Shown: positions 45,396 through 61,811 of the stretch, in pieces
How the letters are laid out: the number at the start of each line of letters is the position of its first letter
How positions within the stretch are numbered: position 1 is the stretch's first letter
Source of the DNA: Halomicrobium zhouii
GTDB taxonomy: Archaea > Halobacteriota > Halobacteria > Halobacteriales > Haloarculaceae
Direction of reading: 5' to 3'
Assembly (NCBI RefSeq): GCF_900114435.1
Contig: NZ_FOZK01000001.1
Coordinates: 496,001 to 560,000, forward strand
DNA: 64,000 nt
Program-made: the position numbers and the translations under genes
The notes under the pieces: model-generated
The model's input: only the letters and a program-made list of their open reading frames with translations
What the model was told of the DNA's origin: nothing
The model's database searches: none

Positions 45396-46409
45396 ATGCA
45401 GACGACTTCGACGCGCACCGTCGTGACGCTCGTCTTCGCAGGCGCCCTGGTCCTCATGGCCGGGTGTTCCGGGATCGGTCTCGGTGACGGCGACGTCGGT
45501 GCATCATCGACCGAGGGAACGGCCGAGAACGTCACGGACGACCGAACCGAGGCGACGGCCACCGAGAGCGAATCGACCTCGGACGACGGGCATAGCCACG
45601 ACGGCCACAGCCACGACGGCCACAGCCACGGCGGTGACGACGCCGGGAACGAGACCGGCGACGACGCGGACGCCGACTCAGCGCCTGCCAACGCGTCGCT
45701 GGCAGAACTGGACGGGAAGATGACTATCGCGGTCGACGGCTCCGAACTCGACCTCCAGGACCGGGACCGAGACGGTGACGCGTTCGGCGTCGCCGAGTCC
45801 GACGAGCACACCTGGACCGCCAACGACTCCGATATGACGCTCGCGGCAGCCCTGTCGGGTCTCGACGTGAACGCAACCGAGTCCACACTCGCGGTCGACG
45901 GCGAGCGCTACACCGAGTCGACCGAGGGGACGACGGTGAGTTACCGCGTCGACGGCGAGTCGGTCGACCCCGAGGCGTACGTCCTCGAAGACGCCGACAT
46001 GGTCTGGATAACCGTCACCACGGCGGAGACGAACGTGTCTGGCCCGGGAACCTACATCAAGGCCGCCCAGCAACACGCACACGGCGAGATGCGCTTCGTC
46101 GTCGAAGGCGAGGAACTCGACTTCTCGAAGGAGAAGTACCAGGCGGGCCACCGGCACTTCCACTACGAGCACGGGGACGGTGAGATCTGGCACGCCCACT
46201 CCACGTCGATCACACTTTCGTACGCGCTCTCGACGCTCGAGGGGATCCACGCGGCGGACGGCGTCGTCGAGTACAACGGAACGACGTACGACCCCGCGGA
46301 CGACGACACGACGGTCGAGGTCACCGTCAACGACGAACCGGTCGATATGGACGAGTACGTGATGAAGGACGGCGACTCGGTTCGCATCGTCGTCGAATCG
46401 ACGGGGTGA
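45396..46409 (+). CDS. Histidine-rich surface lipoprotein, paralogue with (HSHDG) repeat
   Basis: 337 residues. Lipobox VLMAGCSG (Cys about 24). A disordered Thr/Glu/Asp segment ends in HSHDGHSHDGHSHGG, a likely Zn/Cu/Ni-binding tract. It is followed by the same two domains as the gene at 39438: DFSKEKYQAGHRHFHYEHGDGEIWHAHSTS here, FSKERYVMNDDYFHFHGDEDGSRWHAHSTN there. The two repeats end EAYVLEDADMVWITV and DEYVMKDGDSVRIVV. The paralogues bracket the MoxR/DUF58 region. Function unknown. The start is ATG 45396. Confidence 0.75.
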   Translation: MQTTSTRTVVTLVFAGALVLMAGCSGIGLGDGDVGASSTEGTAENVTDDRTEATATESESTSDDGHSHDGHSHDGHSHGGDDAGNETGDDADADSAPANASLAELDGKMTIAVDGSELDLQDRDRDGDAFGVAESDEHTWTANDSDMTLAAALSGLDVNATESTLAVDGERYTESTEGTTVSYRVDGESVDPEAYVLEDADMVWITVTTAETNVSGPGTYIKAAQQHAHGEMRFVVEGEELDFSKEKYQAGHRHFHYEHGDGEIWHAHSTSITLSYALSTLEGIHAADGVVEYNGTTYDPADDDTTVEVTVNDEPVDMDEYVMKDGDSVRIVVESTG

Positions 46410-49048: not shown

Positions 49049-49349
49049 CTACCGACCGAACTGTGAGTGGCCGGGCTCGAACGACGAGCGAAGCGAGTCT
49101 TTCGGCGTCCAGTCGAAGCTGGTGAGACTGGGGTCGGAAGATAAAGGCAGCGAGTTTACCGGCAGGACTTTATTGTGTTGGGTATCGTGAAAATATAAAG
49201 ATAATCCCGGGCAGTAGGCACTCCAGTTCACGTCAGTTTTCCACGATTAATCGGTAACTAATCGATCCCTACCTGGCTTAATGACCTCTTAAACACTGGA
49301 GTGGGACAGGCCAAGGGTATTGCGAGAAAGTACACAAGAGTCACATGCC
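49049..49349. other. Intergenic region before the first beta-helix gene
   Basis: About 300 bases, AT-rich at 49140-49270 (GTGTTGGGTATCGTGAAAATATAAAG). A TATA-like CTCTTAAAC near 49286-49294 lies about 28 bases before a TTG codon at 49320 and about 58 before the GTG at 49350. No gene seen. Confidence 0.45.
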
Positions 49350-50957
49350 GTGACGAAGGAAGACAACCGGAGTTCGGAAACTCGCGAGACGGACGCACCG
49401 ACCGATCACAGTACTACGACATTTTCCCGCCGGAGCTATCTTCGGGGACTGGGCGCAGCCGGGCTGGCTGGTGGCCTCGTTCAGCGCGGCGGGTTGGTTG
49501 GTGCGGCTGCGGCCGCAGACCCGAGCCAGTACGCCGACCGATTCGAGACCGTCGTCGACGTCGTCGACGCAGGCGCGGACAACTCCGGCCAGGAACCGGT
49601 GTCGTCCGTGCTGCAGGAACACCTGGACGACGACACGCTGCTGGCGTTCCCCCCTGGTCGATACTACATGGACGAGCAGGTCCGTTTCACGGACTTCGAC
49701 AACGTCGGACTGGTCGGGGACGACGCGACGCTCGTGCCGGCGAACTTCCACGACTTCGACGGGCCGCAGTATCGGCTCTTCCGCCTCGGGACCCACTACA
49801 GTCCCGGGACGGACCTGCTGGTGGTGGGATTCACCGTCGACCAGACCGCGCCGGACACCGGAATCCGCGTCGTCGATGCGGTGGTCGACGACGGCCTGCA
49901 CGTCGAGGACGTCTACGTCGACGGACGTCACGACAGCGGTACCTTCGGGCCAGGCCGGTTCAACGTACTCGACGCTGGAGGGGACGGTCTCGTCAGACGG
50001 TTCAGGGCTCCCGACGGTGGCCAGTGGGAGAGCGAGACGCCCAACGCCGGTAACATCTGGCGCGGGCCGACCGGTATCCTCGCGAACATGACCGCGGGCA
50101 CGCTCCGGTTCGAGGACTGCGAACTCGGTGGCTTCCCGGACAACGGTCTCTACGCGTCCGGCGGGTCCGGCCGGATCATCGTCGACGGTGGTCACTACCG
50201 GAACAGCAACGCGCCGAACATCCGGGTCGGCGGGGCGAAGGCCGTCGTTCGAGGCGTCACGGTGACGGTCGACGAGACGCCCGCCGTCGGGTTCGACGAC
50301 CAGCGCGGTATCCGGCTGCAGAACGCCGCCGACGCGGAAATTCTGCAGACGACGGTCGACGTCCGGGTCGACCAGGGGGTCACCGCCATCCACGTTCCCG
50401 GTTCGGCCGGGACGGTCTGGATCGAAGACGTGGACGTGACCGTCGATTCGTCGGTCGGCAACACGGCGATCTCGGTCTCCCCCGACGCGGGGAAGACGAC
50501 GGTGTACAGCTCGACTATTGACATGAGCGCACCCGGTGGGTACGGCATCGTCTTCGAGGGGCCCGATGCGTCGGCCTCTGCCCACGTCGAGAGTGTGGAC
50601 ATCGTCGGTGACGTGGGGGACGAGGGCGCCCGCGCAGCGATCCGGAACACGCGCGACGACGTCGATTTCAGGGCCGTCTCCATCGACCAGCCCGGGGGCC
50701 AGAAGCGCTACGGCCTGGTCAACCTCGGGGACGACTGCCTCGTGTACAAGTCGAACGTCCGGACCGCGAACTACCCACTGCTCGAGGCCGGCACCGGGAC
50801 CCACGTCGAGGACAACTACGCCAACTCCTACGGCGACCGCGAGGCCATCGCGCTCCACGACGACAGCGAAGACGTCTACCTGAAGAACAATCGCCTCCGG
50901 GGCGGTATCAGGGACGCCGGCTCTGCCGGGCTGAAGCTGGTCGGCAACGAGTTCTAG
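49350..50957 (+). CDS. Tat-exported right-handed beta-helix protein, copy 1
   Basis: 535 residues from GTG 49350. No ATG is available; TTG 49320 would add ten residues. Tat signal SRRSYLRGLGAAGLAGG near residue 27. After TVVDVVDAGADNSGQ the protein has short repeated strands typical of a pectin-lyase-like right-handed parallel beta-helix: LRFEDCELGGFPDNGLYASGG, VWIEDVDVTVDSSVGNTAIS, LVYKSNVRTANYP. The block DTLLAFPPGRYYMDEQVRFTDFDNVGL is nearly identical in the gene at 60282. Likely a secreted glycan-binding or -cleaving protein; catalytic residues are not recognised. It is upstream of the polysaccharide region. Confidence 0.8.
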   Translation: MTKEDNRSSETRETDAPTDHSTTTFSRRSYLRGLGAAGLAGGLVQRGGLVGAAAAADPSQYADRFETVVDVVDAGADNSGQEPVSSVLQEHLDDDTLLAFPPGRYYMDEQVRFTDFDNVGLVGDDATLVPANFHDFDGPQYRLFRLGTHYSPGTDLLVVGFTVDQTAPDTGIRVVDAVVDDGLHVEDVYVDGRHDSGTFGPGRFNVLDAGGDGLVRRFRAPDGGQWESETPNAGNIWRGPTGILANMTAGTLRFEDCELGGFPDNGLYASGGSGRIIVDGGHYRNSNAPNIRVGGAKAVVRGVTVTVDETPAVGFDDQRGIRLQNAADAEILQTTVDVRVDQGVTAIHVPGSAGTVWIEDVDVTVDSSVGNTAISVSPDAGKTTVYSSTIDMSAPGGYGIVFEGPDASASAHVESVDIVGDVGDEGARAAIRNTRDDVDFRAVSIDQPGGQKRYGLVNLGDDCLVYKSNVRTANYPLLEAGTGTHVEDNYANSYGDREAIALHDDSEDVYLKNNRLRGGIRDAGSAGLKLVGNEF

Positions 50958-50999: not shown

Positions 51000-51926
51000 C
51001 TAGACGATCGACGGCTTGCTCGCTGGTTCGTCGTTTCTGACTCGCCGAGCGACGTCCCCCATCGTTTCGACGGTCACGTCTGTCTCTCGACGGGCGCGGT
51101 CGACGGTCGCGAGCACCCGTTTCATCCGTTCCCGGTCGTGTTCGTCGACGACGTTGTGGGGGTGGAGCCAGAGGTGGAGGACACCGTCCGTTTCCCGGAG
51201 CGCTTCGATCCCCAGGCGGACGGCATCCACGATGGGGTCGTCGTGGACCCCCTCGATGATTCTTCGTACGAGGCCTTCGAAGCAGAATAGATACAGCGAA
51301 GCGGGGACGTTCACGAGCCCGTACTCGTCGACGGCCGGTCTCACGATCGGGGGAGAGTTCCGGGTTCTGAGGCCGTTCCAGAGCTTCTCGACGGGCCCCC
51401 GATCGGCAGGTGCCGAGCCCCGATAGCAGGCGAATCCATGTTCCGCGAGTAACTCGCGGTACCCGACCTCGTTCACCGGAAAAACGAACGATCGTGGTTC
51501 GGTACCGTACGGTGCGAGCGTCTCGGCAGCGGCCGCACACTCCGACTCGGCCAGGTCCCGGTTCATGCGTTCGTGGGCGAAGTGGACGTGGCTGAAGCCG
51601 TGACTCGCCAGTTCGTGGTCGGCGTCGGCGTCTGCGACCTGGTCGACCAGTCCGTTGGCGAACCACGCGTCGTCCCTCGGAATGCCGGCGGGGGCGTCGA
51701 CGCAACACTGCGATCCGGCCGGATGGTTGGTGTGACCGCCCGCACAGTCTTCGAGAAACAGGTGCCCGACGACCGCCCACGTCGCGGGAATCTCGTACTC
51801 GTCGAAGAGTCCGAGGAGGTCGGTCCACGCGGACCGAGCGTCACGGATTCGCGCGGCGGGAAGCGGCCGCTCGTGGTGGAACCCCCACCCGAGCTCGGCG
51901 TCGAGAGAGATAACGACTGATCCCAT
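51000..51926 (-). CDS. Polysaccharide deacetylase (NodB-type, CE4) family protein
   Basis: 308 residues. The first motif is VVISLDAELGWGFHHERPLP, with the catalytic Asp in LDAE rather than the usual DDG. The second is ELASHGFSHVHFAHERMN, the metal-binding HxxxH pair. A later SFVFPVNEVGYRELLAEHGF and HLWLHPHNVV complete the fold. CE4 enzymes remove N-acetyl groups from glycans; a role in polysaccharide modification fits the surrounding genes. There is no signal peptide, so it may act inside the cell or on a lipid-linked precursor. Start ATG 51926. Confidence 0.85.
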   Translation of the reverse strand: MGSVVISLDAELGWGFHHERPLPAARIRDARSAWTDLLGLFDEYEIPATWAVVGHLFLEDCAGGHTNHPAGSQCCVDAPAGIPRDDAWFANGLVDQVADADADHELASHGFSHVHFAHERMNRDLAESECAAAAETLAPYGTEPRSFVFPVNEVGYRELLAEHGFACYRGSAPADRGPVEKLWNGLRTRNSPPIVRPAVDEYGLVNVPASLYLFCFEGLVRRIIEGVHDDPIVDAVRLGIEALRETDGVLHLWLHPHNVVDEHDRERMKRVLATVDRARRETDVTVETMGDVARRVRNDEPASKPSIV

Positions 51927-52397: not shown

Positions 52398-54830
52398 ATG
52401 TCACGGAATATTGTCAGCGGCGTCCTCTCGGTCGTCTCGGCGAAAGTGGTCACGCTGGTCATCGGTCTCGTGGCTTCGCCGCTCCTGTATCGGATGCTCG
52501 GACCAGCAAAGTTCGGGGAGTACGCGACGGTCCTCTCGACACACGCGCTGCTCATGATCTTCGTCAGCTCGGGCATCACGCGTGGCGTCCAGAAGTACGT
52601 CGCCGAGGACCGCTATTTACCCGACTGGGAAGCACACGTCGTGGGGTTCTACTTTCGTCTCGCAGTCGCACTCGCTACCGCCGGAGCGCTCGTGTACTTC
52701 CTGGCCGTTCGGTTCGGGGTGATCGCGTGGCTGTACGACCCGACGTTCGAGACGTACTTCCTGATCATGATCGCTGCGGTCGTGAGTTCGCAGACCTGGT
52801 CGTTCGCCCGGCGGGGACTGATGGGTCTCGGTCTCGAGCGCCACTCCGAGCCGTTGATGATCGTCAAATGGGTGGGTTTCGGCGTTCTCGCGCTTGGATT
52901 CGTCTCGCTCGGATACGGCGTCGTTGGCGCACTGGCCGGGCAGATGCTCGGGACGCTGATCGCCGCAATTGGTGGGATACTTCTGGTCGTCCGACAGGTC
53001 GGCGTCCGTGCACTCGTACGCAACCCCCACCCGGGTTTCCCGCGCGAGAAGATATTCACCTACAACACGAGCGCCATCGGCCTGTCGTTCCTGATGCTGT
53101 CGCTGTACCACGTCGACGTCATCATGCTCCAGAACCTGCGCGGGGGCGACATGGTCGGCCACTACAAGGCGGCGCTCAAACTCGCCGAGTTCCTGTGGTT
53201 CGTCCCGGCGACGATCCAGGCGGTGTACATCCACTCGACCTCCGAGATGTGGTCGAAGGGGCAGTTAGACCGGGTGGCGAACATCGCCTCGAAGACGACC
53301 CGGTACACGCTCCTGTTGACGTGTCTCATGTGTCTCGGGCTGGCGTCACTCGCCGAGATCGTGGTTCCGATATACTGGGGCCAGGATTCGGCGCCGGTGG
53401 TCACGCCACTGCTGTTCTTGCTCCCCGGCGCCCTCGGCTTCGCGGCGGTCCGGCCGACGCTCGCCATCGAGGAGGGCCACGGCAACCTGCGATACTCGCT
53501 GTACGCGACGGGGGCTGCGGCGGGGATCAACTTCGTCCTCAACGCGATACTGATCCCCGTCGCCGGAATGCGTGGCGCGGCCGTCGCGACGAGCGTCGGC
53601 TACGGGTCGATGTTCATCTTCCACGTCTGGAGCGCTCGCAAGCTCGGTTTCAACCCGCTGAGTGATTCGCGACTCGCCCGCATCGCCGTGACGGCAGGGC
53701 TGTCGGCGGTCCCCATCTTGCTGCTCCCGACGGTCCTGTCCAGCTGGGTCGCCATCGCTGTCGTTCCGCCCGTCGGCCTCGCGATCTTCCTCGCACTCTC
53801 CTTCGTGACGGGGGCACTCGACGTCGAGGAGTGCTGGGACCTCCTCTCGGCGTTCCCTGGGCCGGTTCCTGGACTCGTCGCCCGCGCCCGCGACCCCGAC
53901 CGGCCGGCGCTGATGAGCAAACGCGCCGTCGTCAACGGCCAGCGCTGGCTCGCCGTCCTCGGTATCCTGCTGTTCGCGGCCGGGACCGGGTTCGCGCTCG
54001 CCACGGCGGTGCTGGACGGCGGCGGCAACGAGTCGTCGGCGATCAACGGCACCGAGACCCCGATACCGTCCGACGCGACGGCCGGTCCGACGACAGCCTC
54101 GGACAGCGAGACCACTGCGTCGTCGTCGGACGGGACGGGAACGGTCGACCGGGGTCAGCGCGAGAGCGATAGCGTCACACCGATCGACATCAGGACCGAC
54201 GCGGACGACGGAGACGACGACACCGGCGGATCCGGCGGTGGATCCGGCTCCTCCGGCGGGTCCGACTCTTCGGACGACTCCGATGGGTCGGGCGGGTCCG
54301 GTTCCTCGGGTGGGTCCGACGGTTCCGACGACCCCGACGACTCCGACGACACGGAAACCGAGACGGACACCGACACGGAGACGGAGAACGAGACGGACAC
54401 CCCGACCGAGACCGAGACGGACACCGACACGGAGACGGACACCGACACGGAGACGGATACCGACACGGAGACGGAGAACGAGACGGCGACTGAGACGGAG
54501 ACCGAGACGGCCACCGACACGGAGACGGACACGGAGATCGAGACGGACACCCCGACAGAGACCGAGACGGCCACCGACACGGAGACGGCCACGGAAACCG
54601 AGACCGACACTGACACCGAGACGGAGAGCGACACGGAGACGGCGTCGGATACCGAGACCGATACGCCGGAGGACACGACCACCGACACTGGAACGGACGG
54701 GACTGGGACTGACGATACCGAAACAGACGGGTCGGCGACAGACACGACGTCCGGCGACGAGACCGAATCGACGGACGACTCGGGATCGGGCGGGATCCTC
54801 TCACTGGTACGGTTCCCGACGAGTTTCTAA
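52398..54830 (+). CDS. Polysaccharide flippase with a long acidic Ser/Gly/Thr/Glu/Asp tail
   Basis: 810 residues. Residues 1-490 form a 14-span oligosaccharide flippase: VVSAKVVTLVIGLVASPLLYRMLGPAKFGEYATVL with the LGPxxFGEY turn, then MLSLYHVDVIMLQNLRGGDMVG and FAAVRPTLAIEEGHGNL. A further span (WLAVLGILLFAAGTGFALATA, about 515-540) is followed by some 265 residues of low complexity. First is a Ser/Asp/Gly stretch (SGSSGGSDSSDDSDG), then about 110 residues of alternating Thr with Glu or Asp. The DNA is a minisatellite. Such a tail on a flippase is unusual and could be an extracellular O-glycosylated or cell-wall-like brush. Start ATG 52398. Confidence 0.82.
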   Translation: MSRNIVSGVLSVVSAKVVTLVIGLVASPLLYRMLGPAKFGEYATVLSTHALLMIFVSSGITRGVQKYVAEDRYLPDWEAHVVGFYFRLAVALATAGALVYFLAVRFGVIAWLYDPTFETYFLIMIAAVVSSQTWSFARRGLMGLGLERHSEPLMIVKWVGFGVLALGFVSLGYGVVGALAGQMLGTLIAAIGGILLVVRQVGVRALVRNPHPGFPREKIFTYNTSAIGLSFLMLSLYHVDVIMLQNLRGGDMVGHYKAALKLAEFLWFVPATIQAVYIHSTSEMWSKGQLDRVANIASKTTRYTLLLTCLMCLGLASLAEIVVPIYWGQDSAPVVTPLLFLLPGALGFAAVRPTLAIEEGHGNLRYSLYATGAAAGINFVLNAILIPVAGMRGAAVATSVGYGSMFIFHVWSARKLGFNPLSDSRLARIAVTAGLSAVPILLLPTVLSSWVAIAVVPPVGLAIFLALSFVTGALDVEECWDLLSAFPGPVPGLVARARDPDRPALMSKRAVVNGQRWLAVLGILLFAAGTGFALATAVLDGGGNESSAINGTETPIPSDATAGPTTASDSETTASSSDGTGTVDRGQRESDSVTPIDIRTDADDGDDDTGGSGGGSGSSGGSDSSDDSDGSGGSGSSGGSDGSDDPDDSDDTETETDTDTETENETDTPTETETDTDTETDTDTETDTDTETENETATETETETATDTETDTEIETDTPTETETATDTETATETETDTDTETESDTETASDTETDTPEDTTTDTGTDGTGTDDTETDGSATDTTSGDETESTDDSGSGGILSLVRFPTSF
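54349..54672. repeat. Tandem hexamer-like coding repeat (GACACGGAGACG type)
   Basis: Over 300 bases of near-tandem (GAC/GAG)ACG units, such as GACACGGAGACGGACACC, encode (TE/TD)n in the flippase tail. Unit sequence drifts but period 6 is clear. Slippage makes its length likely to vary between strains. Confidence 0.85.
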
Positions 54831-54923: not shown

Positions 54924-55904
54924 ATGACTACCGTCAGCGTCGTCATTCCGACGTACAACCGGGCCGACGTGTTGCCACGGGCGGTCGGGAGCGTCCTCGA
55001 CCAGACCGTCGCGGACCTGGAACTGCTCGTCGTCGACGACGGGTCGACCGACGGGACGGTCGCCCTCCTCGAAGCGTACGACGACGAGCGACTGCGCGTC
55101 GTCGAACACGAGACGAACCAGGGGGCCAACGCGGCGCGAAACACGGGCATCCAGGAGGCCGAGGGCGAGTACGTCGCCTTCCTCGACTCCGACGACGAGT
55201 GGCGCCCCCGAAAGCTGGAGCGCCAGCTCGACCGCGTCCGGGACGGCGAGTACGTCGCCGCGTACTGCGACGCCGACCGCTCGCACTCTGGCGTGGGCGG
55301 TCGCGTCATCGGGGCGGTGGCGTCGCTGCTGGCCAGGGCCGACGGCGACGTCCTCATGGAGGGCGGGAAGGAACTGGCCGGTGAGATCCTCGCAGACAAC
55401 CTCCACTCCGGGGCGGGGTCGACACTGCTCGTCGAGACCGGGGTCGCCCGCCGTATCGGGGGCTTCGACGAGGAACTCGACCGGTTCCAGGACCCGGAGT
55501 TCCTGTTGCGCGTCATCCAGGAGGGGGAACTGGCCTACGTCGACGAACCGCTGGTGGTTCGCTACGAGACGGCGACGCCCGACGCGGAGACGATACGCCG
55601 GGCGGACGAGGAGTACCTGGCCAAGCACGACGAGCTCGTCAGGGAGGCCGAGTCCCAGGGTTACCGCGTCCGGCAGGCTCACGAACTCCTGCTCGGGATG
55701 CGCTTCCTCGAGGAGGGGAAGTTCGCGCCAGCCGTCGCCCACCTCCTGCGAGCCGACGTCCCGGCGCGCCACTGGCCGGGACTCGCCTGGGCCGGCGTCT
55801 CCGGGTTCCGACATCGCGCCTCCACCCCGGCGACCGTCGTGGTCGGACTCGTGGCGGTCGCCGTTCTGTACGGCGTGGTCACGGCGGTCAGATCCCTGGA
55901 GTGA
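54924..55904 (+). CDS. Family 2 glycosyltransferase with a C-terminal membrane span
   Basis: 326 residues. N-terminal GT-A domain: VSVVIPTYNRADVLPRAVGSVLDQT, ELLVVDDGSTDGTVALL, NQGANAARNTGIQEAEGEYVAFLDSDDEWRPRKLERQL (DSDD is the metal/sugar site). A helical middle (ELLLGMRFLEEGKFAPAVAHLLRA) and a C-terminal span (TVVVGLVAVAVLYGVVTAV) anchor it. A GT2 for surface polysaccharide; donor and acceptor unknown. Start ATG 54924 with a GTGACTAGTAATTC TATA-like element about 28 bases upstream. Confidence 0.9.
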   Translation: MTTVSVVIPTYNRADVLPRAVGSVLDQTVADLELLVVDDGSTDGTVALLEAYDDERLRVVEHETNQGANAARNTGIQEAEGEYVAFLDSDDEWRPRKLERQLDRVRDGEYVAAYCDADRSHSGVGGRVIGAVASLLARADGDVLMEGGKELAGEILADNLHSGAGSTLLVETGVARRIGGFDEELDRFQDPEFLLRVIQEGELAYVDEPLVVRYETATPDAETIRRADEEYLAKHDELVREAESQGYRVRQAHELLLGMRFLEEGKFAPAVAHLLRADVPARHWPGLAWAGVSGFRHRASTPATVVVGLVAVAVLYGVVTAVRSLE

Positions 55905-55965: not shown

Positions 55966-56997
55966 ATGACCCGAAGGTTCGGCTGGTTTCTCGATCTGGC
56001 GTTCGTCGTACTCTGGACCTGTTTCACCGTCACACTCGTCTCACAGGGCGCGACTGGCTGGGTACGCGCGGCGGCGATCGTCCCGTTCGTGACGCTGTTT
56101 CCCGGCTACACGCTCCTCGCCACCCTGTTCCCGCGGGGAGGGACTCACCGGACGTATCCCTTCGACCGGAACGAGAGCGGGCTCGAGAATCCGATGCCCA
56201 CGAAGTCCGGCGTCGACGGGGCCGAGCGATTCGCGTTCTCGGTCCTCCTGAGCGTCGTCGTCGTGGCGGTGGTCGCGTTGATCGCGAACTTCACTCCCTG
56301 GGGCGTCAGCGTCGTCCCGATCCTGTTCGGCGTCGCCGGCTGGACGCTGCTGTGGACGCTAGGGGCGCTGGTCCGCCGGGTTCGGCTCGACCCAGCGGAG
56401 CGATACGTCCCCCGACCGCTTGGACTCGTCTCCGCACTCCGGTTCTCCGGTGGCCCGTCCGCGTCGTGGGGGAACGAGTCCCGTTCGACGATGTTCGACG
56501 TCGCGCTCGGCCTCTCGATTCTGGTGTTCGCGACGAGCCTCGGCTACGCCGCGGTGAATCCGCCACAGGAGACCAAGGCGGCGGGATTCACCGAATTCTA
56601 CGTCGAGACCGAGAACATCTCCGGTGACGTGGAGTCGACGTACCCCTCGCAGTTCGCGCCCGGACAGACCCGGACGTTGCCCGTCGGTATCGAGAACCAC
56701 GAGCAGCGGTCCGTCGACTACCACTTGGTCGTCCTCGAACAGCGGGTGGACGGCGCCGGCGAGAACGCGTCGGTACGCTCCGAGGCGGAACTCGACCGGC
56801 GAACGGTGTCGCTCGACCACGGCGAGCGGACGGTCCTCCCGCTGTCGGTCTCACCGACCGGGACCGGGACCGACCGCCGCCTCGTCGTCCTGCTGTACGA
56901 GGACAGTCCGCCAGCGGATCCCGCTATCGATTCGGCCTACCGGTCCCTCAGGCTCCCGATCGACGTCACGACCGACGCCGACGCCGGGGGTGCCTGA
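55966..56997 (+). CDS. DUF1616 family membrane protein
   Basis: 343 residues. Four membrane spans in the first 200 residues (FLDLAFVVLWTCFTVTLVSQG, AAAIVPFVTLFPGYTLLATLFP, FSVLLSVVVVAVVALIANF, VVPILFGVAGWTLLWTLGALV) and one near 185. The C-terminal outside domain is a beta-sandwich (EFYVETENISGDVESTYPSQFAPGQTRTLPVGIENHEQRSVDYHLVVLEQ), as in DUF1616. The family often accompanies surface-polysaccharide genes in haloarchaea; function unknown. Start ATG 55966. The next gene follows after five bases. Confidence 0.85.
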   Translation: MTRRFGWFLDLAFVVLWTCFTVTLVSQGATGWVRAAAIVPFVTLFPGYTLLATLFPRGGTHRTYPFDRNESGLENPMPTKSGVDGAERFAFSVLLSVVVVAVVALIANFTPWGVSVVPILFGVAGWTLLWTLGALVRRVRLDPAERYVPRPLGLVSALRFSGGPSASWGNESRSTMFDVALGLSILVFATSLGYAAVNPPQETKAAGFTEFYVETENISGDVESTYPSQFAPGQTRTLPVGIENHEQRSVDYHLVVLEQRVDGAGENASVRSEAELDRRTVSLDHGERTVLPLSVSPTGTGTDRRLVVLLYEDSPPADPAIDSAYRSLRLPIDVTTDADAGGA

Positions 56998-57002
56998 ATC
57001 GG

Positions 57003-57572
57003 ATGTGGCCCTGGGAACACCTCGCCGTCGGCTACCTCCTCTACTCGGCGCTCACGCGATACTGGTCCGGTGACCCGCCGACGACGGCGGCGTTCGTCGC
57101 CGTCGCGTTCGGGACGCAGTTCCCCGACCTGGTCGACAAACCGCTCGGGTGGCTGCTGGACCTTTTCCAGGGCGGCGTCTCGGTCGCCCACTCGGTGTTC
57201 ACCGCCGTCGCGCTCTCGGCCGTCGTCGTCGCCCTCACTCGTCGGGTCGGACGGCCGAAACTCGGCGCGGCGTTCGTCGTCGGCTACCTCTCCCACCTCC
57301 CCGCCGACGCGGTGTACGGGGCGGTGTTCGACGGCCAGATCAAACTCCGCCCGTTCTTCTGGCCGCTCGTCGAGGCGGCCCCCTCCGCGAGCAGCGGCTT
57401 CCTCGACAACGTCGCGTACTACGCGCTGCGGTTCCTGTTCTTCCTCACGACGGACCGCGGGCTGGCGTTCCTGTCGCTGGAACTCCTGTTGCTGTCGTTC
57501 ACTGCCTGGATCTGGTTCCGGGACGGCTGTCCGGGCGTGCCGTCCAGGGGTGCCGTGACGGACCTCCGGTGA
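57003..57572 (+). CDS. YdjM/DUF457-family metal-dependent hydrolase-like membrane protein
   Basis: 189 residues starting MWPWEHLAVGYLLYSAL with His 6, then FVAVAFGTQFPDLVDKPLGWLLDLF, AHSVFTAVALSAVVVAL and FVVGYLSHLPADAVYG. The H, FPDLVD and SH(LP)xD groups are the DUF457/YdjM pattern, with four membrane segments. Family members are called inner-membrane metal-dependent hydrolases; substrate unknown. It lies 5 bases after DUF1616, so they are co-transcribed. Confidence 0.85.
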   Translation: MWPWEHLAVGYLLYSALTRYWSGDPPTTAAFVAVAFGTQFPDLVDKPLGWLLDLFQGGVSVAHSVFTAVALSAVVVALTRRVGRPKLGAAFVVGYLSHLPADAVYGAVFDGQIKLRPFFWPLVEAAPSASSGFLDNVAYYALRFLFFLTTDRGLAFLSLELLLLSFTAWIWFRDGCPGVPSRGAVTDLR

Positions 57573-57584
57573 ACACCCGGGCCG

Positions 57585-59567
57585 TCACGTCGTCGCCGCT
57601 GGCGGTTGCGTGCACATACGGACTTCGTCGTTGGTGTAGACGACGGCCATCTCCGGGCGACAGACCGCGGATTCGTTGACGTCACGACTCACGCCGAACC
57701 CCTGGCTGCTCTCGAAGAACGTCGTGTCTCTCGCTTGCTCCTGCCGGTAGACGACCATCTCGTGGTCGACCGGGTCGGTCCCGTTGATCCCGGCAGTCCG
57801 GGACGGATACGCCCCGTTCCGATTCAACACCGTCTGGTAGGGGTGGTCGGTGTAGAGCAACTGTTCCGGGAGGATGTTCGCGCTGTCCGGCGATCCGGTG
57901 ATCCGCCCGATGGTGTCGACGGCGGCCAGTTCCTGCTGATTGTAGGCGAGCTGTGCTCCCTGTCCCTCGAAAACCGGGTTGTCGACCGTCCCGTTCGCCG
58001 ACACCATCATCACCGTCGGAAACGCGGCCGCGAAGAGAAGCAGGACGACGACGACGATGCGTCGATTGAGAGACAGTTCGAGGTGGCGGAGGCCGATGAC
58101 GGTCAGCAGGACGAGCGGGAGGTAGAGGAACGCGAACCAGCGCTGGGGGATGAAGCTCCGGATGCCGAACATGGGGAGTCCGAGGACGAACACGAGCATG
58201 ATAGCCGCGCTGAACAGCAGCGTGAACGTCGACTGCCGGGCCCGCGTTCGGTTGACGACGTAGAGACAGCCGAGGAAGGTCCCGAACAGGAGCAGCAGGA
58301 AGCCGAGCGTGTCGATGTACGGAACGAGGACGTCGATCAGCGTCGGGTCGGCGCCCTCGGGGGCTGCGCCGTCCGCGGAGCTCGGCCCAGCGAGGTTCAA
58401 CACGCCCGCGCTCGAGATCAGCGTCTGCCGGAGGTAACTCAGGAGCGTCAGGAGGAACGTCTCTCCCTTGTAGGGAGTCATCGACCAGAGGAACGTGCTG
58501 AAGCCGAGGTCGAACGCGATGAGGCCGGCGATGTTGACCGGCTGGTTGATGCGGAACACGTCCGGGTCGAGGATGGAGGGCCGGAACACGTCCAGTCCCA
58601 TGAAGAGATACGCGAGGAACGCGCCGCCGAGCATCACGAGCGTGATGAACGAGGACACCTGGTGGGTGAGGATGATGGCGACGCTGAGGACGAACATGAA
58701 CGACAGTGCGACTCTGTCCTGCCCCGTCCGCATCGTCCGGACGAGCCAGTAGCAGAGCCCGAGAAACAGCACCAGCCCCATGCTCGTGGGGATGAGGTGG
58801 ATCCCCCACTCGATGACGTAATCGCCCACCGAGTACAGCATCGCGGCGAAGGCGGCCCAGCGCTCGTCGACGAGCAGGTTCGCCGACGCGAAGACCAGGA
58901 GCACGGAGACCGGCATCACGACTCCGAGTGACAGGTAGAGGCCGAGGCGAAGCGAGACGTCTCCGAGTAGCGCCGTCGCGACGACGAGCAGGTGGTACAG
59001 CGGTGAGGTGTAGTGTTTGTTGTCGCTGATCGCTTCCAGGGATTCCGCGGCGAAGACGTCTCCTGCCAGCCCGGTGATGTGCGTCCAGATGTCGATACCG
59101 ATCAGTCCCGGTGTCGTGTACAGCGCCGCGAACCTGACTACGGCCGCCAGTGCGACGATCTGTACAAGCACGCGCGTCCTGTTGAACCCCTCGGAGCGAA
59201 CGAACGCTATCTGCAGGAAGATCAGCGTCCCGGTCAGTCCGGCGACGACCAGGAACCGGGGCGAACGCTGGCCGTCCTGGACCGCGAGCGCGACCAGAAC
59301 GGCGAGGCACAGAAACACCAGTGACGGGAGCGCTCGCCTGAACCCCTTCGAGAGGGTCGGTAACTCCTGGATACGGGGGGACGATCGATACGTCGCCAGC
59401 AGGTAGATGATGCACGAACTGCCGAGGACGATCGGTATCGTCCGGATGTATATCTGCGAGGCGAAGAAGCGAAGCGGGAACAGGGCGAGTGCGATCAGGA
59501 GTCCGACGGCCGCGGCGACGATGTCGAATCGCGCCGTCGCGACCCGGTGACGGAGCGCGCTACTCAT
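57585..59567 (-). CDS. GT-C-like polytopic membrane protein
   Basis: 660 residues with 13 or more membrane spans across residues 15-535 and an outside C-terminal domain of about 120 residues (DTIGRITGSPDSANILPEQLLYTDHPYQTVLNRNG). The first long outside loop contains TTPGLIGIDIWTHITGLAGDVF, with an Asp expected in a GT-C active site, and KHYTSPLYHLLVVATALL. It is probably a lipid-linked-sugar glycosyltransferase or an oligosaccharide transferase-like protein. Convergent with the DUF457 gene. Start ATG 59567. Confidence 0.75.
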   Translation of the reverse strand: MSSALRHRVATARFDIVAAAVGLLIALALFPLRFFASQIYIRTIPIVLGSSCIIYLLATYRSSPRIQELPTLSKGFRRALPSLVFLCLAVLVALAVQDGQRSPRFLVVAGLTGTLIFLQIAFVRSEGFNRTRVLVQIVALAAVVRFAALYTTPGLIGIDIWTHITGLAGDVFAAESLEAISDNKHYTSPLYHLLVVATALLGDVSLRLGLYLSLGVVMPVSVLLVFASANLLVDERWAAFAAMLYSVGDYVIEWGIHLIPTSMGLVLFLGLCYWLVRTMRTGQDRVALSFMFVLSVAIILTHQVSSFITLVMLGGAFLAYLFMGLDVFRPSILDPDVFRINQPVNIAGLIAFDLGFSTFLWSMTPYKGETFLLTLLSYLRQTLISSAGVLNLAGPSSADGAAPEGADPTLIDVLVPYIDTLGFLLLLFGTFLGCLYVVNRTRARQSTFTLLFSAAIMLVFVLGLPMFGIRSFIPQRWFAFLYLPLVLLTVIGLRHLELSLNRRIVVVVLLLFAAAFPTVMMVSANGTVDNPVFEGQGAQLAYNQQELAAVDTIGRITGSPDSANILPEQLLYTDHPYQTVLNRNGAYPSRTAGINGTDPVDHEMVVYRQEQARDTTFFESSQGFGVSRDVNESAVCRPEMAVVYTNDEVRMCTQPPAATT

Positions 59568-60281: not shown

Positions 60282-61811
60282 ATGGCAAAGCAGGAGGCAA
60301 CACGGGGGATTCGCAGACGGAAGTATCTAACGTCGCTCGCAGGTGGGGTGACCGCCACGGCAGCGGCGTCGATGGCGACGACGGGGACCGCCGCAGCCGA
60401 CGTCAGCACCGACCACTACGGATCCGTCGTCGACGTGGTCGACGCCGGAGCGGACAACGAGGGCAACGAGTCCATCACGCCAGTCATCAGGGACGTCATC
60501 GAGGACGACACGCTGCTCCAGTTCCCGCCGGGCCGGTACTACATGGACGAACAGGTCCGCTTCACCGACTTCGACAACCTGGGGCTCCGGGGGAACGACG
60601 CCACGCTGGTGCCGGCGAACTGGTACGACTTCGAGGGGCCCCAGTACCGCCTCTTCCGCCTCGGTACGCACTACGCCCCCGGGAAGAACCTCCGCATCGG
60701 ACACTTCACCGTCGACCAGACGGCCGAGGACACCGGTATCCGCGCGTTCGAGACGTACGCCTCGGACACCCTGGAAGTCCGCAATATCAACGTCGTCGGG
60801 CGACACGACAGCGGGACGTGGGGGCCCGGACTGTTCGTCGTCACGGACCCCGACGGCGACGGGCTCGTCAAGGATTTCCGCGCACACGATGGCGGGACAC
60901 TCGTCGAGAACTCGCCCGGCGACGGGTACGTCGGCCCGAACGGCATCCTCTGTAACCAGGGCCACGCGGGAACGATACGGTTCGTGGACTGCGAACTCGG
61001 CGCGTTTCCGGACAACGGGCTCTACGCGTCGGGTGGAACGGGTCGCGTCATCGTCGAAGGCGGCCGCTACTACAACAGCGGAACCGCGTCGATCCGTATC
61101 GGTGCCAGACGGGGTGACGTCAGGAACGCGACGGTCTTCGTCGACGATCAGCCCTGGGACATCAACCAGGAGGGGATCCGGCTGGAGTACGGCGACTGGC
61201 ACATCGTGGACGGCGTCACTATCGAGATGGACCAGCCCCACGGCGAAGCGATCCACATCCAGAACGACGTCGACGGGACGACCATCAAGAACTCGTCGAT
61301 ACGAATGGAGACGCCGGCGTACCTCGGTGTCGAGATCAATCCCAGTGCCGGACCGACCTACATCGTCAACACCGAGTTCGAGATGAACGACAGCAACTGT
61401 GCCATCTTGGCCGAAGGCGACGACGCCGGCGAAATAGGTGTCGAGGACGTCTCTATCACCGGCGACGCTGAGGGTAATCTGATGCGCCACGCGATACGGT
61501 GTGAACGCAACAACGCGTCGTTTCGCGCGGTCACGATCGACCAGACGGCCGGCGAGCAACGCCGCGGCATCGCGTTGCTCGGCCAGGATAGCCTGGTGTA
61601 CAACTGTGACATCCAGACCTCTGGTCGCGGCATAACCGTCAAAGGTGACGAAGTCTGGATCCAGGACTGTTACTCCAACTCCACGCGTGACGTGAACTCG
61701 ATCCGACTGTACGACACGGCCAACGACGTCCGGCTCAAGAACAATACGTTCCCGGACGGCGTCAGCGACTGGGGGGCGACGAACGTCGTCGAGACGGGTA
61801 CCGAGTACTGA
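60282..61811 (+). CDS. Tat-exported right-handed beta-helix protein, copy 2
   Basis: 509 residues. Tat signal IRRRKYLTSLAGGVTATAAASM near residue 10, then VVDVVDAGADNEGNESITPVI and DTLLQFPPGRYYMDEQVRFTDFDNLGLRGNDATLVPANW. The beta-helix rungs IRFVDCELGAFPDNGLYASGGTGRVIVEGG, VWIQDCYSNSTRDVNSIRLYDTANDVRLKNNTF match copy 1 at 49350 over nearly the entire length. The two bracket the polysaccharide region. Likely secreted, acting on the same or related glycan; no catalytic residues recognised. Start ATG 60282. Confidence 0.82.
   Translation: MAKQEATRGIRRRKYLTSLAGGVTATAAASMATTGTAAADVSTDHYGSVVDVVDAGADNEGNESITPVIRDVIEDDTLLQFPPGRYYMDEQVRFTDFDNLGLRGNDATLVPANWYDFEGPQYRLFRLGTHYAPGKNLRIGHFTVDQTAEDTGIRAFETYASDTLEVRNINVVGRHDSGTWGPGLFVVTDPDGDGLVKDFRAHDGGTLVENSPGDGYVGPNGILCNQGHAGTIRFVDCELGAFPDNGLYASGGTGRVIVEGGRYYNSGTASIRIGARRGDVRNATVFVDDQPWDINQEGIRLEYGDWHIVDGVTIEMDQPHGEAIHIQNDVDGTTIKNSSIRMETPAYLGVEINPSAGPTYIVNTEFEMNDSNCAILAEGDDAGEIGVEDVSITGDAEGNLMRHAIRCERNNASFRAVTIDQTAGEQRRGIALLGQDSLVYNCDIQTSGRGITVKGDEVWIQDCYSNSTRDVNSIRLYDTANDVRLKNNTFPDGVSDWGATNVVETGTEY

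Follow-up and report, generated by a model that had tools for sequence, protein, structure and literature searches.

The flippase gene and its surroundings

In the 64,000-nucleotide stretch of Halomicrobium zhouii DNA analysed here (the window), a single ORF of 810 codons (52398-54830, + strand), which starts with ATG and has no internal stops, joins a MOP/Wzx-type flippase to a Thr/Asp/Glu/Ser/Gly tail of ca. 270 residues. The flippase part was matched by the Pfam families PF01943 (Polysacc_synt; residues 6-263, 67.5 bits against a cut-off of 28.2) and PF13440 (residues 30-330, 32.2 bits against a cut-off of 23). A hydrophobic stretch of ca. 23 residues separates the 14-span core from the tail, which from about residue 539 to residue 810 consists, in this order, of a Ser/Gly/Asp-rich part, a Thr-(Glu/Asp) tract and a hydrophobic end (GGILSLVRFPTSF). 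The initial annotation had described a 14-span flippase continuing into an acidic low-complexity tail; its coordinates and the fused tail held, but the 15th helix between the two had been overlooked, as had the hydrophobic C-terminal patch, the N-glycosylation sequons and the existence of stand-alone versions. The features of the gene and its neighbours are as follows.

49320-50957, + strand: beta-helix protein A, with a twin-arginine-like start by eye (PF13229, E 4.9e-4, below the cut-off)
51000-51926, - strand: polysaccharide deacetylase-like protein (PF01522, 23.3 bits, cut-off 23.1)
52398-53810, + strand: 14-span MOP/Wzx-like flippase core, residues 1-471 (PF01943, AlphaFold2 model, Foldseek matches to WzxE and MurJ)
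53811-53942, + strand: cytoplasmic linker following span 14, residues 472-515 (Lys/Arg-rich side, mean Lys+Arg 3.6)
53943-54011, + strand: 15th transmembrane helix (helix 15), residues ca. 516-538, with the signature QxxLxVxGxLLFxxGxGxA (hydropathy over 53 sequences, alignment A3, low-confidence AlphaFold2 helix 506-541)
54012-54827, + strand: predicted extracytoplasmic stalk, residues 539-810 (composition, homologues)
54027-54479, + strand: stretch in which all four tail sequons (NxS/T) lie, their Asn being encoded at 54027, 54045, 54387 and 54477 (sequence contexts)
54347-54665, + strand: Thr-(Glu/Asp) tract, a 12/18-base repeat array (TRF)
54774-54827, + strand: C-terminal hydrophobic patch DDSGSGGILSLVRFPTSF (ILVFMWY enrichment of the last 25 residues in 34 of 36 tails)
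54924-55904, + strand: GT2 glycosyltransferase (PF00535, 134.8 bits)
55966-56997, + strand: DUF1616 protein (PF07760, 252.7 bits)
57003-57572, + strand: YdjM-type membrane protein (PF04307, 50.7 bits)
57585-59567, - strand: large membrane protein (61% match in L156 to a DUF2206-annotated gene of Haloarcula sp. JP-L23; no Pfam match itself)
60282-61811, + strand: beta-helix protein B (PF13229, 31.5 bits, cut-off 25.9)

Many of the same neighbours were found in Halomicrobium urmianum, Haloarcula sp. JP-L23, Haloferax mediterranei and Hfx. gibbonsii, whose loci add nucleotide-sugar dehydrogenases and further glycosyltransferases. Judged from its gene content, the window locus is an exopolysaccharide-type gene set. 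The beta-helix proteins A and B are related and flank the cluster on either side. Elsewhere in the window (45396-46409), a protein that looks lipoprotein-like by eye carries a His-rich DGHSH repeat.

The fusion is also present in a congener (genome G006), in which the protein has 798 aa and a core that is 99% identical. Over the first 540 codons, the two genes show 25 synonymous and 6 non-synonymous differences. Their tails, aligned over 255 codons, show 35 synonymous and 32 non-synonymous changes and 18 gap columns with the frame kept, and have exactly the same last 25 residues. By this comparison, the sequence of the tail drifts fast while its make-up holds. A sequencing or assembly error joining two genes, the reservation that had been attached to the initial annotation, is for all practical purposes ruled out by the congener, the kept frame and the recurrence of the fused form in 37 of the 80 homologues fetched, including some on named complete plasmids. 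The plasmid records NZ_CP119800, NZ_CP085303, NZ_CP085333 and NZ_CP085338 (matches H3-H6) show no annotated feature at the tailed flippase; in H5, the ORF (L074) is open although the record shows none.

Core fold and predicted topology

Residues 1-566 were modelled with AlphaFold2 from 53 sequences (pLDDT 84.7, pTM 0.82); the core helices of the model read as 14 spans, and helix 506-541 was of low confidence. Foldseek with the core as the query retrieved WzxE (E 6.6e-10) and MurJ (TMq 0.68), and a sequence search for solved relatives gave none at E 0.01. A 14-helix core with the WzxE/MurJ fold, the mark of a polysaccharide flippase of the MOP superfamily, was found with both AlphaFold2 and Foldseek. 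On this evidence, the protein belongs to the MOP-family (Wzx-like) flippases and has an ordinary core; it is predicted to transport lipid-linked glycans, and its neighbours fit such a role. The fold shared with WzxE and MurJ is that of the core, over which alone the solved chains were compared; the 15th helix and the predicted exported stalk are additions here.

Helix 15 showed a mean Kyte-Doolittle hydropathy of 1.92 over the 53 sequences. In the same sequences, the mean number of Lys and Arg residues was 18.8 in the loops on the N-terminal side against 2.2 on the opposite side, with helix borders set by hand for the count. Since both ends of the core are placed inside by charge and helix 15 follows, the tail is predicted to be outside, and we regard this location of the stalk as very probable. 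The position beside the glycan exit that the initial annotation had raised as a possibility is thus supported by helix 15 and the positive-inside count, which also supply the topology prediction it had proposed.

In mycobacterial MviN, the C-terminal end is an extracellular domain. MviN (Rv3910/MSMEG_6929), summarised in its source as flipping lipid II and as having C-terminal additions besides 15 predicted helices (PMC11898655), is the nearest known idea and has 15 helices like the window protein, the likeness being one of description. MviN possesses a cytoplasmic pseudokinase domain that is bound by FhaA, whereas the window protein has a short linker and a predicted outer low-complexity stalk.

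Fused tails and stand-alone stalk genes in haloarchaea

With the core plus helix 15 as the query, 178 of the 392 searched genomes of the order had a family member at 1e-60 or better. Eighty loci picked for long frames were fetched and their protein ends were read individually; classes were assigned by script (helix threshold 2.0) with one correction by hand, in which L095 was relabelled core. Helix 15 followed by a long tail was present in 37 of the 80 haloarchaeal homologues (16 genus codes, 7 family codes), a fraction that is not a prevalence because the loci were selected for long frames. Helix 15 with nothing or few residues behind it was found in 17 (bare flippases), a long Lys/Arg-rich tail without helix 15 in six, and neither in 20 (core-only). 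The remark in the initial annotation that no other flippase with such a tail was known has thus been overtaken by these 37, which came from the look at related genomes that it had recommended. No flippase with such a tail was found in the literature searched, which covered titles and the starts of abstracts, most subscription journals lying outside the coverage. Long frames at L095, L097 and L112 were rejected as tails, being core-only once the start was placed. None of 20 further loci chosen for shorter frames had a tail. Among 246 genomes of the phylum, the 18 in which a match at 1e-25 or better was found all fell inside the window's own order.

On a tree of the core (residues 1-485, quick method), the tailed state needed at least nine changes, seven of which were forced by starred branches, indicating that it was gained or lost several times. 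The 17 homologues with helix 15 but no fused stalk and the 20 with neither imply that flipping does not need a fused stalk. In Halorussus limi and Halorientalis, the tailed flippase follows a sugar-1-phosphate nucleotidylyltransferase gene. Homologues of the beta-helix proteins at 150 bits or more were found in 24 of the 37 tailed, 16 of the 17 bare, none of the 20 core-only and none of the six other loci, that is, in 40 of the 54 loci with helix 15 against none of the 26 without, 13 tailed loci having none; this co-occurrence follows one clade in part.

The tails were of the Thr-Glu/Asp, Thr-Ser-Pro or Thr-Pro type or were rich in repeated Asn sequons. As far as the sequences tell, conservation does not extend to the acidity, as other tails are rich in Thr, Ser and Pro with few acidic residues. 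The Lys+Arg fraction was 0.000-0.041 in the long tails behind helix 15 against 0.104-0.179 in the six without it, which are expected to remain cytoplasmic and in which none of the 24 Asn residues lies in a sequon. One protein (L106), in which helix 15 is followed by a sequon-rich tail free of Lys and Arg, sits inside the clade of the six Lys/Arg-tailed and two tail-less proteins; since the make-up switches with helix 15 even in this case, it follows the predicted side of the membrane. By eye, the six long tails without helix 15 (L093, L096, L098, L099, L101 and L104) end in a heptad-like stretch that is conserved, and binding of a cytoplasmic partner is possible for these Lys/Arg-rich tails.

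Sequons were counted in 35 of the 37 tails, leaving out L103, which is cut by a contig end, and L067, a near-copy of the window. NxS/T occurred 162 times against a mean of 93.4 in 1000 shufflings (sd 7.4, maximum 121); its reversed form was counted 80 times. The forward motif prevailed in 24 tails, the reversed motif in seven, and the two were equal in four (sign test, p 0.003; such p values are rough because the tails are related); 17 of the 35 tails have two sequons or fewer. When distinct contexts were counted once, 76 were forward-only and 19 reverse-only. All four Asn residues of the window tail sit in NxS/T, and the genome encodes a homologue of the oligosaccharyltransferase AglB (875.8 bits).

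Haloarchaeal S-layer glycoproteins have, like the window stalk, a Thr-rich stretch beside a membrane span. These stretches are O-glycosylated in Hbt. salinarum and Hfx. volcanii according to one summary (PMC2913515) and are called disordered in another (PMC8559796). The C-terminal span of the S-layer glycoproteins is PGF-CTERM and is cut, whereas the window span precedes the stalk and gave no PGF-CTERM match. A glycoprotein that is mucin-like in function would have a long Thr/Ser-rich extracytoplasmic stretch and dense O-glycans; here, the Thr/Ser-rich composition is present, and the extracytoplasmic side is predicted from charge; the Pfam Mucin family PF01456 did not match the window protein and matched one of 39 tailed proteins (E 5.6e-4). 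The helix-15-dependent make-up and the sequon enrichment argue for a glycosylation-prone tail, as had been suggested earlier, and it is likely that the stalk is glycosylated, by AglB at NxS/T and at Thr as in the S-layer glycoproteins. An assignment to the staphylococcal Ser-Asp repeat adhesins ClfA/ClfB was rejected, the tail scoring 29.4 bits (ClfA) against a cut-off of 1150 (NCBIfam); ClfA and ClfB likewise have a low-complexity outer stalk, and the likeness to the window tail is one of composition only.

Strong Thr-(Glu/Asp) tracts were also present in five other ORFs of the window genome, among eight stretches fetched. By eye, the tract ORFs of L146, L148 and L150 have Sec-like signals and the two in L149 have twin-arginine-like ones; some of the long tracts in L146, L148, L149 and L150 link folded parts.

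The last 25 residues contained 20.3% ILVFMWY against 2.9% in the remaining tail when 36 of the 37 tails were compared (L103 alone was left out). The end was richer in these residues than the rest in 34 of the 36, and 26 of the 36 had at least four of them. In L072 and L108, the hydrophobic end is seemingly long enough for another helix, as it is in L079, where a short charged end follows.

Stalks are also encoded apart from the flippase. At L130, the stop of a core-only flippase gene overlaps the ATG of a small gene behind it, whose product combines a helix with a stretch rich in Ser, Thr and Pro and with a hydrophobic end. At L140 and L180, the flippase stops soon past a helix-15-like stretch, and a product with QRxLALLGILFLFVG, Thr-rich sequence and a similar hydrophobic end is encoded by a gene of its own. 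With the exception of L140, no stand-alone stalk was seen within the 13-kb stretch near 15 of the 17 bare flippases; flags near the bare flippases of L115 and L144 came from a false frame and were not counted.

When 146 genomes of the order were searched with a helix-15 profile built from alignment A3 (21 rows, two of them from these stand-alone genes), there were 34 matches at 1e-4 or better, 16 to helix 15 of flippases and 18 to non-flippase proteins. Three of the 18 sit in a fragmented assembly (G109) and could not be placed. Among the 15 placeable ones, 13 lay within 50 kb of a family flippase on the same contig, those of G110:C1 and G145 being the exceptions, against a rough expectation of about one in ten, estimated from at most three family members per 3-4 Mb. 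Two of the 13 are on replicons of only 63 and 240 kb, so small that their nearness carries little weight. In alignment A3, the helix-15 signature is common to the fused and stand-alone forms.

The ORFs of 13 of the 18 non-flippase matches were read, one of them being L229; G026:C2, G109:C78, G109:C238, G110:C4 and G081:C2 were left out. In five genomes (family code f14), the stand-alone gene lies on the flippase strand, 116 bp or 1.4-1.8 kb downstream. In L217-L219, the genes of the core flippase and of the stand-alone stalk are separated by a reverse-strand ORF that by eye resembles CapA. In f7 genomes with bare flippases, the stand-alone protein has a span resembling helix 15 and an acidic stretch with beta-type repeats behind it (L202, L207, L208, L209, L212 and L213), the repeats matching CarboxypepD_reg in both proteins scanned, and its gene is 20-70 kb from the flippase (about 195 kb in G092). 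The small gene at the profile match in Halorussus vallis and H. halophilus adjoins a sugar-1-phosphate nucleotidylyltransferase gene. Pfam and NCBIfam gave nothing over the cut-off for five scanned stand-alone proteins without repeats. The filters for Thr/Ser-rich and stand-alone ORFs also flagged ORFs that looked out-of-frame or lipoprotein-like, and those were not counted.

Possible roles of the stalk

The architecture, its haloarchaeal spread, the separate genes near flippases and the dependence of tail make-up on helix 15 are matters of observation. The explanation we prefer, to which we give a probability of roughly 0.6, is that the window gene encodes a Wzx-like flippase of an exopolysaccharide locus together with a modular accessory, which would comprise helix 15, a long disordered stalk prone to N- and O-glycosylation, and a hydrophobic end. 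The stalk module would be extracytoplasmic and probably glycosylated, and it probably works with the flippases of haloarchaeal polysaccharide loci.

The flippase core would deliver lipid-linked repeat units to the outer face, and helix 15 would carry the C-terminus across the membrane and hold the glycosylated stalk at the exit. The stalk might then be a charged, sugar-coated spacer between the membrane and the S-layer, which would keep the exit open and the S-layer off; it might also retain the growing chain or enzymes of the outer face, or guide the chain outwards, and the hydrophobic end would give a second contact. By a rough estimate, an extended chain of 270 residues is long relative to the gap between the membrane and the S-layer. 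That the stalk acts as such a spacer at the glycan exit, keeping it open and holding enzymes or chain, is a guess with the odds somewhat against it. A bolder idea seems distinctly doubtful, namely that a haloarchaeal membrane-anchored glycoprotein stalk with the signature helix, a sugar-acceptor part and a hydrophobic end, fused to Wzx-like flippases or encoded in their vicinity, acts as their partner on the outer face and guides exopolysaccharide out of the membrane and across the S-layer. In Gram-negative bacteria, this task falls to co-polymerase and outer-membrane channel proteins.

The main rivals of this mechanism are generic decoration and a glycan acceptor. According to the former, the stalk is hydrophilic surface decoration of haloarchaeal membrane proteins in general, a filler without any special tie to flipping. 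The Thr-(Glu/Asp) tracts in five other secreted-looking ORFs of the window genome, the fast drift of the tails and the many family members without one would all suit a filler, but a helix-15 signature common to the fused and stand-alone forms, stand-alone forms near family flippases in 13 of 15 placeable cases and the retention of the hydrophobic end patch would not, and we consider decoration unlikely. According to the latter, the flipped units are put on the flippase's own stalk, which would serve as a primer or store of surface polymer; the dense Thr and sequons at the exit and the AglB homologue in the genome are compatible with this. Nothing, however, indicates protein-linked exopolysaccharide in these organisms, and the bare flippases have no acceptor, which makes such a function quite improbable.

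It is very unlikely that the tail is cytoplasmic, either as an acidic disordered aid to solubility at high salt or as a neutral repeat expansion. The charge rule places it outside, six homologues without helix 15 carry Lys/Arg-rich, sequon-free tails, other tails are not acidic, and sequons are in excess; these points are set against an acidic tail, repetitive DNA and a share of one half of non-synonymous changes among the tail codon differences from the congener. Hardly credible is a sorting or anchoring signal of the PGF-CTERM type cut by archaeosortase, with the stalk released or lipid-linked, for although ArtA is encoded (336 bits) and a hydrophobic stretch with Arg ends the tails of L072, L079 and L108, the basic cluster is absent from the end of the window protein and none of the 39 tailed proteins matched the PGF-CTERM family at E up to 0.1 (Pfam, NCBIfam), so that they were rejected as archaeosortase A substrates.

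For the preferred explanation, a flippase with a modular accessory stalk, neither the exported stalk nor the separable signature helix nor the split and fused forms were found in the literature searched. To our knowledge, there is no answer as to how polymers cross the archaeal S-layer. The biosynthesis of archaeal exopolysaccharides is summarised as little known (PMC9943897). A glycan flippase of haloarchaea, Agl15 of Haloferax volcanii, is presented in a source whose summary calls the archaeal O-glycosylation pathway elusive (PMC8241124); Agl15 serves N-glycosylation, and it is likened to the window flippase by description, not by sequence. A tailed homologue (E6P09_RS17120) was found in Haloferax mediterranei, an organism in which genes can be deleted and of which a strain lacking exopolysaccharide is available, as reported in outline (PMC6759562), so that the role of the stalk is directly testable there.

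The module, fused to or encoded near the flippase depending on the lineage, is a candidate outer-face partner of the flippase. The stalk is also a candidate substrate of archaeal O-glycosylation. Whether fused or nearby, it points to a functional component of archaeal polysaccharide export that has so far gone undescribed.
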